This document shows positions 56,117 to 63,509 of a DNA stretch of 64,000 nucleotides, piece after piece (the stretch's first letter is position 1; every line of letters starts with the position of its first letter). A program made the position numbers and the translations under genes. The notes under the pieces are model-generated. The model worked only from the letters and a program-made list of their open reading frames with translations. It did not search any database and had not been told where the DNA came from. Origin of the DNA: Natronosalvus rutilus. Lineage in GTDB: Archaea; Halobacteriota; Halobacteria; Halobacteriales; Natrialbaceae. The stretch is taken from the NCBI RefSeq assembly GCF_024204665.1, contig NZ_CP100355.1, positions 2,461,451-2,525,450 on the forward strand, in the 5' to 3' direction.

Positions 56117-56644
56117 ACCACCGGGTCTGCTTTCCAGTGGGTTAAATGCAGTTATCCCTCGAGCGGACACTGTACTCGAGTTTTCGCCCCGGACCGTAGA
56201 CTGGCAGCCTGCATTCCCGAGCGACTGGCTGGTGGGGAGCGATTCCACCGGGAGACGGTGGCGGGACGCTGGATGCGGGTCGCAAGTCGTGGTTGCTGGT
56301 TGCAGGCCATCGGTCACAGGTCGTGGTTGTGTCTCGCAGTTTGCTCATGGGCGAACATCTCGAGAGCGCGCACCCACGCGCCGGTCGTGAGCGAGCCGTA
56401 TCGAGGCAGGCCACCAAAACACTATTCAGAACCGGACCATCACCGAATGTGAGAGGTGGTCGAGTTTCGTTGTATTCTTGTCAGATGAACGAATACCCCA
56501 CCGGGCGGTCTACGAGTCGTTTGAACCAGGAACTCGCTCCTCGAGGAGGACGCACACCGACAGCCAGAAGTAGTGACTGAAATATAACATCTAATCCATC
56601 CTAAACGTTAATAGGCCAGATTTTGTATTATTACCAGCTTGCAG
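56117..56644. other. Intergenic region before the stressosome-like operon
   Basis: About 530 bases without a supported gene. A patch at about 56276-56335 contains near-repeated gtcgtggttg words. The last 70 bases are AT-rich: a TATA-like tttgtattatt lies at about 56621-56631 and another AT core (aacgttaatagg) at about 56604-56615, either of which could drive the operon starting at 56645. Confidence 0.5.
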
Positions 56645-57454
56645 ATGCCATCCAGTGACCCCCCATACGAGAAATTAATCGAAAATGCACCTATCGGCAT
56701 CTTCCGGGTTCCAGTCGACGACATGGACCTCGAAGCGTCCGAGGTCGACCTGGAGAATCAGTACGCCAATCGGCGGCTCGCCAGAATGCTTTCTTTCGAT
56801 TCAGTCGAACAGCTTCGCTCGGAGATTTCGTCCATCGAATACGCGGATCCACAGGACGCCGAGCGATTCGAAGAACAGCTCAAGCGAACGGGTCGCGTGG
56901 ACGCGTTCGAAACGCAACTTCTCGGCAACAACGGCGAGACGATAGACGTGCTCGTCTCTGGAACCGTCGACGACGGGGAGTTCATCGCCTACGTCACCGA
57001 CATTTCCGAACGGAAACGACTCGAGCGGAAGACGGCCGAACAGGCCGAAGCGATTCTCGAACAGTCGACGCCGATCGTCGAGATCTGGGATTGCATCACG
57101 CTCGCAACCGTGGTCGGAACGCTGGATACGTCCCGCGCACAGCGGCTCACCGAAGAGTTGCTCACCGAACTCACGGAGAACGGAGCGGAGATCGCGCTGA
57201 TCGACATCACCGGCGTTCCGAACGTCGACACAGCGACGGCACAGCACCTCACCGATACGGTGAACGCCGTGTCGCTGCTGGGGAGCGAGGTCATCATCAC
57301 CGGAATCAATCCCGACATCGCCCAGACGCTGGTCCAGCTCGGGATCACGATGGACGACATCCGAACCAGGTCCACGTTGAGCGAGGGGCTGGAACTCGGA
57401 TTGCACCTCACCCAGAACATCGACATCGTGACGAATGCGTCCCAATCCCAGTAA
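56645..57454 (+). CDS. RsbR-like PAS-STAS protein (stressosome sensor)
   Basis: A 269-residue protein. An N-terminal PAS domain (about 1-120; PYEKLIENAPIGIFRVPVDD ... YVTDISERKRLE) is joined through a helix to a C-terminal STAS domain (about 140-265). The STAS part matches RsbR: EQSTPIVEIWDCITLATVVGTLDT, ELTENGAEIALIDITGVPNVDTATAQHL, VIITGINPDIAQTLVQLGI. Thr189 in DITGV corresponds to the RsbR residue phosphorylated by RsbT; Thr219 lies where the second site is expected. In bacteria RsbR proteins form the stressosome shell and sense signals; here the PAS is the candidate sensor. First gene of the operon; a TTG at 56639 is an alternative start. Confidence 0.85.
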   Translation: MPSSDPPYEKLIENAPIGIFRVPVDDMDLEASEVDLENQYANRRLARMLSFDSVEQLRSEISSIEYADPQDAERFEEQLKRTGRVDAFETQLLGNNGETIDVLVSGTVDDGEFIAYVTDISERKRLERKTAEQAEAILEQSTPIVEIWDCITLATVVGTLDTSRAQRLTEELLTELTENGAEIALIDITGVPNVDTATAQHLTDTVNAVSLLGSEVIITGINPDIAQTLVQLGITMDDIRTRSTLSEGLELGLHLTQNIDIVTNASQSQ

Positions 57455-57455
57455 C

Positions 57456-57830
57456 ATGACCCACACAGATCGCGTCACCGTTATCCAGGTGCGAGGAACG
57501 CTGATTGCGACCCTCCCCCCACACCCGTCGGACAGTACGATCGACGACCTCCAGGAGCGCATTCTCGAGCGGATCAATCAGACGAACCTCGAACGCATCG
57601 AGGGAGTCGTGCTCGACGTCTCCGACGTGCAAACGGTCGACTCGTTCTTCGCCCGCGTGATCGTCGAGACGGCGAAGATGGTCGAACTGATGGGCGTTCG
57701 ACCGATTCTCGTCGGCATCGGCCCTGCCATCGCCATCACGGTGACCGAACTCGGATTCGACCTCGGTGGTGTGCAGACGGCCAGGAGTATCGATGCGGCG
57801 CTAGATGCCCTCGGGATAGATTCGGGGTGA
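57456..57830 (+). CDS. RsbS-like STAS protein
   Basis: A 124-residue single STAS domain. RsbS-like features include VTVIQVRGTLIATLPPHPSD, GVVLDVSDVQTVDSFFARVI and LMGVRPILVGIGPAIAITVTELG. Ser56 in LDVSDV is in the position of the RsbS serine that RsbT phosphorylates. The ATG lies one base after the stop of the RsbR-like gene. RsbS normally co-assembles with RsbR and holds the kinase RsbT until stress; the same role is the simplest reading here. Confidence 0.85.
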   Translation: MTHTDRVTVIQVRGTLIATLPPHPSDSTIDDLQERILERINQTNLERIEGVVLDVSDVQTVDSFFARVIVETAKMVELMGVRPILVGIGPAIAITVTELGFDLGGVQTARSIDAALDALGIDSG

Positions 57831-57835
57831 GTCAC

Positions 57836-58261
57836 ATGGTGAGCGAAGAAGGGGTCCTCGAGATCGCCTCCGAATCGGACATCGTCACCGCCCGGACCAC
57901 GATTCGTAACGTCGTTTCGAACGTCGGTTTCGGGCTGACGGACACCACCCGGATCGTGACCGCGGTCTCCGAACTCGCCCGGAACATCTATCTCTACGCC
58001 GAGGTCGGGACGATGCGCTGGCGCGTCCGCTCGGAGGGGAGTCGGCGCGTCGTCGAAATCGTCTTCGACGACGATGGACCGGGAATTTCGGACGTCGATC
58101 GCGCCCTCGAGGAGGGGTACTCGACGTCGAGCGGAATGGGCCACGGCCTCTCCGGGGCCCAGAAGATGATGGACGAGTTCGAGATCGACACGAGTGCCGA
58201 AACGGGGACGACCGTCACCATTCGCAAGTACGTGCCACAAGTGGTCGCCAATGACGGGTGA
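57836..58261 (+). CDS. RsbT-like serine/threonine kinase (HATPase)
   Basis: A 141-residue GHKL kinase. All Bergerat motifs are present: AVSELARNIYLYAEVG (N-box, almost the bacterial RsbT signature), IVFDDDGPGISD (G1), and GMGHGLSGAQKMMDEFEID (G2). In bacteria RsbT phosphorylates RsbR and RsbS, then leaves the stressosome to activate a partner. A GTG at 57827 that overlaps the stop of the RsbS-like gene is an alternative start; either way the genes are coupled. Its stop lies inside the start region of the next gene. Confidence 0.88.
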   Translation: MVSEEGVLEIASESDIVTARTTIRNVVSNVGFGLTDTTRIVTAVSELARNIYLYAEVGTMRWRVRSEGSRRVVEIVFDDDGPGISDVDRALEEGYSTSSGMGHGLSGAQKMMDEFEIDTSAETGTTVTIRKYVPQVVANDG

Positions 58262-59270
58262 CGACGAGACGTCGATCACGATTTCCAAACAGGCCGACGT
58301 CATCCTCGCCGGCCGCCGGGCGAAGCCGATCCTGGCAGCGTTCGAACTCGACGAGTCGACCGTCGAAGAGGTCGTCCTCGTGATCCACGAACTGGCCTCG
58401 AACATCGTCAAACACGCCGGGGAAGGGACGATCACGCTCGTGCCCACGTCGTCGGACGACCATCGCGGTCTCGAGATTCACGCCGAGGACTCGGGGCCGG
58501 GAATCGGCGACGTCGATCGAGCGATCACCGACGGCTATTCGACGGCGGGGAGCCTGGGGTCCGGCCTCGGGGCGGTCGATCGGCTCATGGACGAATTCGA
58601 AGTCGTTCCTCGCCCCGACTCACACGCGGGCACGCATATCGTCGCCAAACGCGAATTTCGGACTCGAGCGCGTTCACAGAAGCCGTTTCCGCTCACGTTC
58701 GGAGCGGCGACGCGCCCCCGGACGCGCGGCGATCCGAACGGCGACGCGTTCGTCATCAAGCGGTGGGGAGACAGCGCCCTCGTCGGCGTCATCGACGGAC
58801 TGGGGCACGGACGGGATGCTCACACCGCCGCGGCGGCGGCGAAACGGTACGTCACGAGCCACTTCGATCAGTCGCTCACCGCGATCTTTCGAGGCGTCGA
58901 ACGGGTGTGTACCAGGACGCGCGGCGTCGTCATGGCGCTCGCTCGCTTCGACTGGTCCCAGGAGACGATTTCCTACGCCAGCGTCGGCAACATCTCGCAC
59001 AAGGTCGATGCCCCGGTGCCGTTCCAGTTCGTGACGCGACGGGGAGTGCTCGGGAACGACGCGCCGGAACCGTTGATCAAGGAAAACGAGTGGGACCCCG
59101 AGTACGCCCTGGCGCTGTATTCTGACGGCGTACGGTCACTCTGGAAGTGGGACGAATTCGTCCACCTCGTGGACGAACCGAGTTCGACGCTCGCACACCG
59201 GCTCCTGGCAGAGCTAGCGGACGAGAACGACGACGCGACCGTACTGGTGGTTACGAGGGGATCGCGATGA
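58251..59270 (+). CDS. RsbT/RsbW-like kinase fused to SpoIIE-type (RsbX-like) phosphatase
   Basis: A 339-residue two-domain protein. Residues about 1-135 are a second GHKL kinase-like domain (LVIHELASNIVKHAGEG, AEDSGPGIGD, GSLGSGLGAVDRLMDEFE). Residues about 150-339 are a PP2C/SpoIIE phosphatase with metal Asp residues at DPNGDAF, LVGVIDGLGHGRDAHTAA, LALYSDGVRSL and NDDATVLVV, so catalysis looks intact. Bacterial stressosome operons carry an RsbX phosphatase that resets RsbR/RsbS, sometimes as such a fusion. The ATG overlaps the kinase gene by 11 bases. It probably both reverses and tunes the switch. Confidence 0.85.
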   Translation: MTGDDETSITISKQADVILAGRRAKPILAAFELDESTVEEVVLVIHELASNIVKHAGEGTITLVPTSSDDHRGLEIHAEDSGPGIGDVDRAITDGYSTAGSLGSGLGAVDRLMDEFEVVPRPDSHAGTHIVAKREFRTRARSQKPFPLTFGAATRPRTRGDPNGDAFVIKRWGDSALVGVIDGLGHGRDAHTAAAAAKRYVTSHFDQSLTAIFRGVERVCTRTRGVVMALARFDWSQETISYASVGNISHKVDAPVPFQFVTRRGVLGNDAPEPLIKENEWDPEYALALYSDGVRSLWKWDEFVHLVDEPSSTLAHRLLAELADENDDATVLVVTRGSR

Positions 59271-61612
59271 GCGGCCAGGACGGTGACGAACAGACCTCTG
59301 ACCGGGATATGATCCAGGCACTGCAGGCGGAGCTCAGGGAGACGAACGAGGGGCTTCTCGCGCTCACCCTCGAACGCGAGGAACACGAACGGACGCTGAC
59401 GGCGCTCCACGAATCGAGCCGGGAACTGCTCCACGCCGAGACCGCCGAGGACGTGAGCGACCTGATCCTCGAGACGACGAACGAGGTCCTCGGCCTTCCC
59501 GGCGTGGGGGTGTACTTCGCCAATGAGGACGGAACCCGGCTCTCGCCGGCCGCGACGACCGAGTACGTCGAGAATAGGTTCGGATCCCTGTCGTCCGTGA
59601 GCCCCGACGACTCGGTCGCGTGGCGGTCGTTCGCCGAGCAAGAGACCATCGTGATGGACGACGGTATGACCGGTCGCGACGAGGGTCTCGAGGCGGCGTT
59701 CCCCAGCGGAATCTGGCTCCCGCTCAGCACCCATGGCGTCCTGGTCGCCGTCTCCGACGGGATCGGGGTGTTCGACGCGGACAAACGCCAGCTCGCCGGA
59801 CTGCTCGCAGCCACCGCCGAAGCAGCCCTCGACCGGGTCGAACAGGAGAAACGGCGACGCCGGCGGGAAGCGCAGCTCGAGGGACTCGTCGAGGCGACAG
59901 GGGAGTTGCTCGGAGCGGAGACGGTACGAGAGGTCTGTGATACCGTGGTCGAGACGGCCGAATCGGCGCTCAGTCTTCCGATTACGATGGTCGCGGTCTA
60001 CGATAGCGAGACGGGGACGCTCAGACCACGCGCACAGACGGCGATGGCCGAAACGATCGTCGACGCGGAGCAGATGTTCGACCCGCAGGCCGAACTGGCG
60101 TGGCAGGCGTTCGCCGAGAAACGAGTGACGGTTCACGACGAGATGGCGGTCGCCCCCGGGGCCGACGCCGACGGTGACACCTACGGCGTTGCGATCCTCC
60201 CGCTCGGGAGACACGGCGTGCTCGTCATCGGCTCGAGAACGACCGACGACGTACACGACGAGCGACTGTCGCTCGCCCGGATACTGGCCGCGAGCACGGA
60301 ACCGTCGCTGGCTCGGCTCCTGGCGACGAACGCCGAGTCCTCGCTCGATCGGGCCGAACGGGAATGCCAGCTCATCGAACGTGACGAACGCCTGCACGAA
60401 CAGAACGAGCGGCTCACGCGACTGAACCAGATCAACGACGTCATCCGTCACATCGATCAGGCGCTGGTGGCGGCGGATTCGCGAACGGCGATCGAACAGG
60501 CCGTCTGCACCCAGTTGACGACCGCCGGACCGTACACCTTCGCCTGGATCGGCGAGTACGACGCGGTGCACGACGCGGTGGCTCCCCAGGAGTGGGGCGG
60601 CGCCAACGACGGGTACCTCGATACGATCGACCCGCGAGAAAAAGCCGACTCGAGCGAACGAGGACCGACAGAACGGGCGAACGAGACACAGGAACCACAG
60701 GTGGTCGAGGACCTGCTCGGCGAGCCGCCACTCCCCCGGTGGCGCCGGGAGGCGCTCAAGCGCGGCTATCGCGCCTGTATCGCGATCCCGCTCGTGTATC
60801 GCGAGATGCGCTACGGCGTGTTGACGGTGTATTCGGATCGGCTCGAGACGTTCGGGGATCTAGAGCGCACCGTCCTCGTCGAACTCGGCGAGACCATCGC
60901 CTACGCGATCAACGCCGTCGAGAGCAAGAAAGCGCTCGTGAGCGACGAGTTCGTCGAAGTGGAGATAGAGATTCGGGACGACGCAATCCCGTTCCTCTCG
61001 GTGACGGCCGAGGTCGGTTGCGCCGTCGAACTCGAGAGCGTGGTCGCCCGGTCCGATGGCGGGTACCGCGTCTTCTTCACCACTCACGGGACGCCGCTGG
61101 AGCCCGTCCTCGAGCACATGGAGCGGGCGTTCGCGGTGGACGACACGCGGTTCATTTCGGAGAACGACGAGGAGTGTCTCTTCGAGTGTACGGTCGACGA
61201 GTCGAGTTTCTTCGGAACGCTCCTCGGTCACGGCGCCGTCCCCCAGCGATTCAGGGCGGAAGGCGGCGAAGGAACGATCGCCGTCGCCCTCCCGGAGAGC
61301 GCGGACGTGCGGCTGTTCATCGACACGATCCAGGCGACGTACGACCACTCGGAGTTGCTGGCGCGACGCGAGCAACCTCGAGAGCGGGATCGACAGACGA
61401 AGAGCGGGTTCACGGCGGACATGGACGAGATACTGACCGACCGTCAGCGAGAGGTGCTCCGGACCGCCTACGAGAGCGGATTCTTCGAGTCGCCACGCGA
61501 ACGCACCGGCAGCGAGATCAGCGACGCACTCGGCGTCTCACAGCCGACGTTCAACAATCACCTCCGCGCCGCCCAGCGAAAATTCTTCGAGCTCGTCTTC
61601 GAATCGGACTGA
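59267..61612 (+). CDS. GAF-containing HTH-10 (bacterio-opsin activator-like) regulator
   Basis: A 781-residue cytoplasmic regulator. A short coiled-coil (about 12-40) precedes three GAF domains (about 45-180, 200-345 and 395-545). The bat-family GAF/HTH-associated region follows (about 560-690), and then the HTH-10 domain (LTDRQREVLRTAYESGFFESP ... SEISDALGVSQPTFNNHLRAAQRKFF). Bat-type proteins are haloarchaeal transcription regulators. The ATG overlaps the phosphatase gene's stop by 4 bases (ATGA). It replaces the sigma-factor-related output that follows rsbRST in bacteria. I infer that it is the output of this operon's partner switch. Confidence 0.87.
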   Translation: MSGQDGDEQTSDRDMIQALQAELRETNEGLLALTLEREEHERTLTALHESSRELLHAETAEDVSDLILETTNEVLGLPGVGVYFANEDGTRLSPAATTEYVENRFGSLSSVSPDDSVAWRSFAEQETIVMDDGMTGRDEGLEAAFPSGIWLPLSTHGVLVAVSDGIGVFDADKRQLAGLLAATAEAALDRVEQEKRRRRREAQLEGLVEATGELLGAETVREVCDTVVETAESALSLPITMVAVYDSETGTLRPRAQTAMAETIVDAEQMFDPQAELAWQAFAEKRVTVHDEMAVAPGADADGDTYGVAILPLGRHGVLVIGSRTTDDVHDERLSLARILAASTEPSLARLLATNAESSLDRAERECQLIERDERLHEQNERLTRLNQINDVIRHIDQALVAADSRTAIEQAVCTQLTTAGPYTFAWIGEYDAVHDAVAPQEWGGANDGYLDTIDPREKADSSERGPTERANETQEPQVVEDLLGEPPLPRWRREALKRGYRACIAIPLVYREMRYGVLTVYSDRLETFGDLERTVLVELGETIAYAINAVESKKALVSDEFVEVEIEIRDDAIPFLSVTAEVGCAVELESVVARSDGGYRVFFTTHGTPLEPVLEHMERAFAVDDTRFISENDEECLFECTVDESSFFGTLLGHGAVPQRFRAEGGEGTIAVALPESADVRLFIDTIQATYDHSELLARREQPRERDRQTKSGFTADMDEILTDRQREVLRTAYESGFFESPRERTGSEISDALGVSQPTFNNHLRAAQRKFFELVFESD

Positions 61613-61719
61613 GACTCGAGCACCGGTTTTGCTATTCTAGCCACTGACATCGATTCACATGGCTTCGTGGCTAGCTACGCTCTCTTTTCCAGTAGAACAA
61701 GTACGTATAATTGAATATC

Positions 61720-63357
61720 ATGACTGGAATAGCAAACGAACGCGACGCAGACGATGGGCGATCTACCGACTTCGAGCAAGCATCTGACACCGACACCAAA
61801 TCCGAAACCGGCACCCACCGACCAGGGAGGCGGACGTTCGTGAAGGGTGCGGCCATTGCGGGTATCTCTGCGCTCGGTCTCTCTTCGACCGCCGCGGCCT
61901 CGGGCTCGTACACGAAGTACGACGGCGAGTACCGACACGTCGTCAACGTCGTCGAAGCCGGCGCCGACAACACCGGGAACCGATCGATCACCCCCGTTCT
62001 CAGGAACATTCGGAACGATAATACGCTGTTTTACTTCCCACCTGGGCGGTACTACATGGACGAACAGCTCCGGTTTACTGGCTTCGACAACGTCGCCTTC
62101 ATCGGCGACGACGCGACGCTCGTGCCCGCGAACTACTACAACTTCGACGGCCCGCAGTACCGGCTCTTCCGTCTCGGCGTCGGCTACAGACCAGGACGCC
62201 GTCTTCGTTTCGAGGGATTCGACATCGACCAGACGGCCCCCGACACCGGGATTCGCGTCATCGAGGCCCACGTCTCCGATCGCCTCGAGGTGCGCGACAT
62301 CAACATCAAAGGCCAGCACGACAGCGGGACGTGGGGACCAGGCCTGTTCAACGTCACTGATTCGAGCGGCTACGGCATCGTCGAGCGCTTCCGCGCCCCC
62401 CAGGGTGGCGAGTGGATCGACAACACCCCGACCGCCGGCGAACGCTGGCGCGGGCCGACCGGCATCCTGGCCAACCAGAACGCCGGCACCCTCGAGTTCA
62501 AACACTGTACGCTCGGTGCCTTCCCCGACAACGGTCTCTACGCCGCCGGCGGAAGCGGGAAAATCATCGTGAGTGGTGGCACCTACCGGAACAGTAACGG
62601 CGCGAACATCCGCGTCGGTGGCAACGGCAGCGAGATCAACTGGCCAAGCGTCAAAATCGACGACACCCGCCCGGAAGACGTGGCCCAGCGCGGAATCCGG
62701 ATCGAGAACGGCAAGAACCTGCGTATCAAAGGGGCAGCCGTCGAAATCACCTCGCCGATGCCGACCAGCCACGCAATCTCGGCGATGCCCACCTGTGACA
62801 GCGCTCGAATCGAGCGCGTCCGCATTGACATGCAGGGCAACGACGTCAATCACGGCATCGTCGTCTCCCCCAACTGCGGGGAGGTCATCATCGTCGAGAC
62901 GCAGATCAACCACGAAACCGCCGGCGGCTACCCGCTGTGGATCCGCAACACGAACGCGACCGACCGCGTGCTCGCCGAATACCTCACGATCACCGGCGAG
63001 GCAGGCGACGCCTCCGGATTCCGTGACGGCATCCGCGTCGAGCGAGACAACTGCCGGTTCAACGTGACCGAGGTCAACCAGTCCGCGCGCAGTGGCGCCA
63101 CCCGAAACGCGATCACGTCGACCGCCGACGACCTGACGGTCTGGAAGAGTACCCTTCGCGCGAACCAGTACCCCATCGTCGAACTCGGTTCCGAGTCGCT
63201 CTACCTGGAAGTCGACGCCGAGTCGACCGGCGGTAAACACGCGGCCTGCCTGTACGATCAGAGTAGCAATATCTCTATCCGCAACAGTCGAATGGTCAAT
63301 GGCGTGCGCGACCTCGGCTCCTCGAGCCTCGAGCTGTCGAACAACACGACCTACTGA
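61720..63357 (+). CDS. Tat-exported right-handed beta-helix protein
   Basis: A 545-residue secreted protein. After a charged N-tail comes the Tat signal GRRTFVKGAAIAGISALGL (about 37). The remainder is a parallel beta-helix of pectate-lyase type: NNTLFYFPPGRYYMDEQ-like start, then repeating Asn/Gly-turn strands such as GIRIENGKNLRIKGAAVEI and ARIERVRIDMQGNDVNHGIVV, ending in LELSNNTTY. The family contains polysaccharide lyases, hydrolases and structural proteins; no lyase-specific residues can be picked by eye. It complements the heparinase-type lyases of the first region. The gene begins 107 bases after the HTH-10 gene and probably has its own promoter (AT-rich 61700-61718). Confidence 0.8.
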   Translation: MTGIANERDADDGRSTDFEQASDTDTKSETGTHRPGRRTFVKGAAIAGISALGLSSTAAASGSYTKYDGEYRHVVNVVEAGADNTGNRSITPVLRNIRNDNTLFYFPPGRYYMDEQLRFTGFDNVAFIGDDATLVPANYYNFDGPQYRLFRLGVGYRPGRRLRFEGFDIDQTAPDTGIRVIEAHVSDRLEVRDINIKGQHDSGTWGPGLFNVTDSSGYGIVERFRAPQGGEWIDNTPTAGERWRGPTGILANQNAGTLEFKHCTLGAFPDNGLYAAGGSGKIIVSGGTYRNSNGANIRVGGNGSEINWPSVKIDDTRPEDVAQRGIRIENGKNLRIKGAAVEITSPMPTSHAISAMPTCDSARIERVRIDMQGNDVNHGIVVSPNCGEVIIVETQINHETAGGYPLWIRNTNATDRVLAEYLTITGEAGDASGFRDGIRVERDNCRFNVTEVNQSARSGATRNAITSTADDLTVWKSTLRANQYPIVELGSESLYLEVDAESTGGKHAACLYDQSSNISIRNSRMVNGVRDLGSSSLELSNNTTY

Positions 63358-63509
63358 TCACGCTGGTGAGGGTCGTTGCGGTGCAGTAACTGGCGACCGA
63401 AGCGGCCATCTCTCCGTCGGTATCTTCGAATTGGGCGTCGCTGTGGTGTTTTCTGATTCCTGAGACCCACCGGGGAAACACTTTACCTCCTTTCTTTCCC
63501 ACGTAGCCC

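Follow-up and report, generated by a model that had tools for sequence, protein, structure and literature searches.

The window analysed here, a 64,000-nucleotide stretch of the Natronosalvus rutilus genome, carries a tight single unit of five open reading frames, all on the plus strand. They encode RsbR, RsbS, RsbT, an RsbT-RsbX fusion (TX), and an output regulator (Table 1). The place, strand, and tight spacing of these genes are as an earlier note on this DNA had claimed. The spacings range from -11 to +5 bases. One base separates rsbR from rsbS, and five bases separate rsbS from rsbT if the ATG at 57836 is taken as the start (the alternative GTG at 57827 gives a 4-base GTGA overlap). The overlap is 11 bases between rsbT and TX and four bases between TX and the output gene. 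The block CCTAAACGTTAATAGGCCAGATTTTGTA upstream of the operon may be a TATA-like element.

Table 1. Features of the operon and its surroundings (window coordinates)
Feature	Position	Strand	Basis
Segment missing from sister species G045 (operon and beta-helix gene)	56118..63496		blastn
Probable promoter region of the operon	56608..56644	+	CCTAAACGTTAATAGGCCAGATTTTGTA kept in three species (alignment of three upstream regions)
rsbR	56645..57454	+	Pfam PAS_9 (N-terminal sensor) and STAS (C-terminal)
rsbS	57456..57830	+	Pfam single STAS domain; stand-alone
rsbT	57836..58261 (alternative GTG start 57827)	+	Pfam HATPase_c_2; predicted GHKL-type switch kinase
rsbT-rsbX fusion (TX)	58251..59270	+	Pfam HATPase_c_2 and SpoIIE
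Output regulator	59267..61612	+	Pfam GAF (three), BAT, and HTH_10; N-terminal ETN coil
ETN coil, residues 15-43, MIQALQAELRETNEGLLALTLEREEHERT, proposed RsbT-docking helix	59309..59395	+	Bacteria-only model; sole such site in the genome; adjacency to RSTX

The Pfam search suggested in the earlier note returns STAS, HATPase_c_2, SpoIIE, and HTH_10. Among solved structures, RsbR matches Vibrio 7o0i (E 9e-29) and Listeria 7b0u (E 2e-28), and RsbS matches 2vy9 (E 8e-18) and the RsbS proteins of Moorella, Listeria, and others. The Vibrio chain is RsbR of Vibrio vulnificus. RsbT has the motifs ELARN (N-box), DDGPGI, and GMGHGL. In the PDB set it reaches only the anti-sigma F factor SpoIIAB, and its identity follows from its place and from the family model, of which it is the best match in the RSTX order. 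It is 31-59% identical to RsbT of bacterial RSTX loci. TX consists of a second RsbT-like GHKL domain (residues ~1-134) with an intact GHKL site and an RsbX-type PP2C phosphatase domain (~140-339). The C-terminal half matches RsbX structures 3zt9 and 3w40 (Moorella and Bacillus; E 1.6e-11), and the metal-binding residues D165, D182, and D292 are conserved. A structure model of TX alone is set aside (pLDDT 46.6). The kinase-phosphatase fusion pointed out earlier is real, but many bacterial modules have the same RsbT-RsbX fusion as a matter of course, and it is no oddity.

The phosphorylation sites named in the earlier note have to be moved. In RsbS, Ser56 (LDVSDV) had been proposed. The serine equivalent to the RsbS phosphosite is instead Ser63 (VDSF), which is Ser in all 37 archaeal sequences. 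The Moorella variant 3zxn carries Glu at the position aligned with Ser63, and the codon change of Listeria S56A falls on the serine of IDSF (ATT GAT TCA TTT), again aligned with Ser63. In RsbR, Thr189 had been proposed, while alignment with Listeria T175 and T209 gives Thr162 (LDTSRA) and Thr196 (NVDT), respectively. The Thr196 position holds Thr or Ser in every archaeal sequence and in almost every bacterial one. With these corrections, structure matches, gene order, and site conservation support the claim of a complete set of RsbR, RsbS, RsbT, and RsbX in which the switch residues are intact.

A gene-order survey shows that the order R-S-T-(T)X recurs in about 115 loci of bacteria and archaea, mostly with an output gene directly next. 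The matches of R, S, and TX, and the recurrence of this order in more than 100 loci, far exceed what chance would be expected to produce. The bacterial rsbRSTX modules (e.g., Moorella, Vibrio, Deinococcus, Verrucomicrobia, and Acidobacteria) share gene content, gene order, and phosphosites with the window's operon. They also share the RsbT-RsbX fusion (in most loci examined), the output gene directly downstream, and, in most outputs, the N-terminal segment described below. What differs is the output: it is a BAT/HTH_10 regulator in the window, and most outputs scanned have a histidine-kinase-type ATPase domain. Among 76 RSTX outputs scanned, 66 have the histidine-kinase-type ATPase domain, 62 HisKA, and seven RsbU_N. 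EAL and GGDEF have two matches each. HTH_10 with BAT is found only once, in the window's regulator.

The sigma-B stressosome of Bacillus and Listeria (RsbRSTUVW-SigB-RsbX) has the core R, S, and T and the phosphatase X in common with the operon. Its sensor is a non-heme globin, while the sensor in the window is a PAS domain. The parts that define the sigma-B pathway, an RsbU_N output phosphatase with RsbV and RsbW, are not found here: the Pfam scan shows no RsbU_N in the output protein, and the operon has no RsbV-type STAS protein. STAS_2 and a third STAS protein are likewise absent from the window's genome. With no further STAS protein encoded in the genome, it is unlikely that partner switching has a second tier as in the sigma-B pathway, and an RsbV/RsbW cascade was rejected as a candidate. 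It had been argued earlier that the classical output is excluded since archaea have no sigma factors. Sigma-free outputs are common in bacteria too. Reported outputs include sigma, kinase, PP2C, and cyclic-di-GMP pathways, most without RsbU_N, and their coupling is left unexplained (PMC9237108). It is also reported that stressosomes occur in "some archaeal species" (PMC9237108, PMC8942246, PMC10014275), and the mere presence of a stressosome in an archaeon is therefore no novelty. The features that appear to be new are the HTH_10 output and a coil specific to the module. No paper linking stressosomes with haloarchaeal work on this operon was found in a literature coverage that is incomplete.

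The output regulator has strong matches to BAT (1.5e-42) and HTH_10 (4.4e-20), from which a DNA-binding output and a role in archaeal gene control are predicted. The rewiring to archaeal gene control proposed in the earlier note is supported to this extent, and its concrete basis would be a docking-type coil on an HTH_10 regulator. The domain order GAF-BAT-HTH_10 is common to this protein and the Bat-like regulators of haloarchaea, but the window's protein has an extra N-terminal segment of ~30 residues, ELxETNxGxxALxxELE (ETN coil), which no Pfam model covers. The same segment is found in haloarchaeal and bacterial kinases, and an exact text search for the motif in papers found none.

In Halobacteria the ETN coil model matches eight of 391 genomes. 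All eight are among the 11 genomes with RsbS, and in each the match lies in the gene after the module (p ~1e-14). All nine strong matches in the phylum Halobacteriota adjoin a module. Since haloarchaeal rows in the model made this recall partly circular, the model was rebuilt from bacteria alone. It recovers all 15 archaeal coil proteins among 9855 ORFs, each encoded by the downstream gene. The window's coil matches the bacteria-only model less well than most coils do (25.6 bits) and has R37 in place of the usual Leu. The 80 bacterial loci were chosen by similarity to haloarchaeal RsbT, so the frequency of the coil in bacteria is biased. In all 22 whole bacterial genomes behind RSTX loci the coil adjoins the module, as judged from contig coordinates, and further copies elsewhere occur in only one Streptomyces. 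This genome, of Streptomyces spiroverticillatus, encodes three more ETN-coil proteins away from its RSTX locus, which may be further targets.

The coil is not obligatory, as the modules of Halonotius have no detectable ETN coil. In Halonotius roseus and H. aquaticus, RSTX is followed after 66-79 bases by histidine kinases without a detectable ETN coil or RsbU_N. The output kinase of Vibrio sp. THAF191c also has no ETN coil; its first 60 residues resemble a degenerate RsbT-like domain, possibly a third kind of coupling. At the other extreme are four loci of other Halobacteriota (L154-L157), whose outputs of 144-167 aa are minimal coil proteins after RSTX, made of the ETN coil and a short further stretch. 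In L154, the only one of them that was scanned, Pfam matches no domain.

The stressosome and the HTH_10 protein could be only co-transcribed, the regulator acting alone through its GAF domains and the stressosome acting elsewhere. Many BAT/HTH_10 proteins in the window's genome work without such a module, and the regulator might perceive signals by itself through its GAF domains. We regard this as unlikely. None of the other genes of the genome, BAT/HTH_10 proteins included, has an ETN coil even at E 10, and elsewhere the coil occurs almost exclusively in the output genes of RSTX modules. The overlap of the TX and output genes also argues against independent action.

In outputs that lack RsbU_N, the ETN coil is probably where RsbT docks. 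A total of 13 coil proteins, one of them archaeal, carry a fused RsbT-like domain immediately ahead of the coil, and a plasmid module of Deinococcus radiodurans has the same fusion. For one fused protein, the structure model shows an unbroken helix along the coil (pLDDT mostly 84-89). It is reported that RsbT binds the N-terminal domain of RsbU, upon which the linker becomes a rigid coiled coil and the effector domains dimerise (PMC12143880). Alternatively, the output regulator could be a phosphorylation target of RsbT, or of the kinase-like half of TX, and not a docking partner. Transient phosphorylation of the downstream kinase has been proposed for Vibrio outputs without RsbU_N (PMC9237108), and the conserved Thr26 of the ETN motif sits in the coil. 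However, a helix fused in cis to RsbT-like domains is what is expected of a binding element, and it is known that RsbU responds to RsbT by being bound (PMC12143880). Phosphorylation of the regulator is therefore improbable in our view. It is also possible that TX and not RsbT is the messenger: its RsbT-like domain would bind the coil and its phosphatase would act on R and S, so that one protein would link reset to output. TX adjoins the output gene in most loci and, as noted, keeps an intact GHKL site. Modules of the Halanaeroarchaeum type, in contrast, have X without the RsbT-like half yet keep a weak coil in the output, which makes a messenger role of TX rather improbable.

The operon is rare in haloarchaea. 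RsbS is found in 11 of 391 Halobacteria genomes (eight of 86 genera), and RsbT in 29 of 393 Halobacteriota, most of them outside Halobacteria. A single-protein scan of genome contigs with RsbS gave no confirmed relative, while the RsbT alignment did work. Two haloarchaeal copies of the module are on plasmids, in Halobaculum halophilum (186.7 kb) and Halanaeroarchaeum sp. HSR-CO (35 kb). In the window's genus, two other species carry the operon at the same locus. Sister species G045 lacks it, and its flanks are joined: the blastn alignments ending at window positions 56117 and 63497 are separated by only ~100 bases. Two further species have other genes at the operon site. At loci L196 and L197, in sister species without the operon, a different 738-aa gene exists between a glutamate-cysteine-ligase-like gene and a 75-aa gene, which suggests a variable integration spot between these two genes.

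The presence/absence segment also includes a gene at 61711-63357 for a right-handed beta-helix (pectate-lyase-like) protein with a Tat signal. This gene is present in two related species and is diverging fast (dN/dS ~0.43, dS 0.6). It was rejected as a fixed partner of the operon, because it is not near the other haloarchaeal modules examined and diverges much faster.

In a tree built from concatenated R-STAS, S, T, and X, all Halobacteria modules form one group (SH-aLRT 99). This group is sister to modules of Verrucomicrobia, Acidobacteria, Planctomycetes, Peptococcaceae, and others (100) and stands apart from other archaeal stressosomes. Among the latter are the modules of Halobacteriota outside Halobacteria, which we call methanogen-type; they share the order R-S-T-X, but many of their outputs have RsbU_N instead of the coil. 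A tree constrained to unite the archaea is worse by 196 log-likelihood units (AU p 2e-6, two odd rows being excluded from the constraint), and vertical inheritance with methanogen stressosomes is rejected by this test. The haloarchaeal modules are thus of bacterial origin. The simplest reading of the tree would be one transfer from bacteria to Halobacteria, followed by patchy spread or loss. Such patchiness, and the empty site in a sister species, might also be expected of a horizontally acquired module that is decayed or idle. This is very improbable, as dN/dS is 0.02-0.17 for all five operon genes, indicating purifying selection, no gene is broken in three species, and the catalytic residues are intact.

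We consider it fairly likely that the operon is a complete RSTX stressosome of bacterial descent with a transcription regulator as its output, in which RsbT signals via the ETN coil. By homology, the PAS-STAS protein RsbR and RsbS would form a core that holds RsbT. A signal sensed by the PAS domain would let RsbT phosphorylate Thr162 and Thr196 of RsbR and Ser63 of RsbS, and RsbT would be freed. Free RsbT would then bind the N-terminal ETN coil of the GAF-BAT-HTH_10 protein and alter its dimer state, enabling it to act on putative DNA targets. The RsbX domain of TX would dephosphorylate R and S to reset the switch, and the extra RsbT-like domain may anchor TX to the core or compete for the coil. 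By analogy with RsbU (PMC12143880), the RsbT-bound coil would change the dimer of whatever follows it, a kinase in most modules and the HTH_10 regulator here.

A wider proposal, which we think about equally likely to be right or wrong, is that the ETN coil is a general RsbT-receptor helix of outputs without RsbU_N. In this haloarchaeal genus the helix would have passed from a histidine kinase onto a DNA-binding regulator, and the stressosome would then reach a transcription factor in one step, needing no sigma factor and no phosphorelay. If true, the haloarchaeal case would be a bacterial stress switch plugged into archaeal transcription by a helix on a local regulator. A helix nearly confined to the gene after RSTX would offer a specific and testable answer to how outputs without RsbU_N are coupled to stressosomes in both bacteria and archaea.
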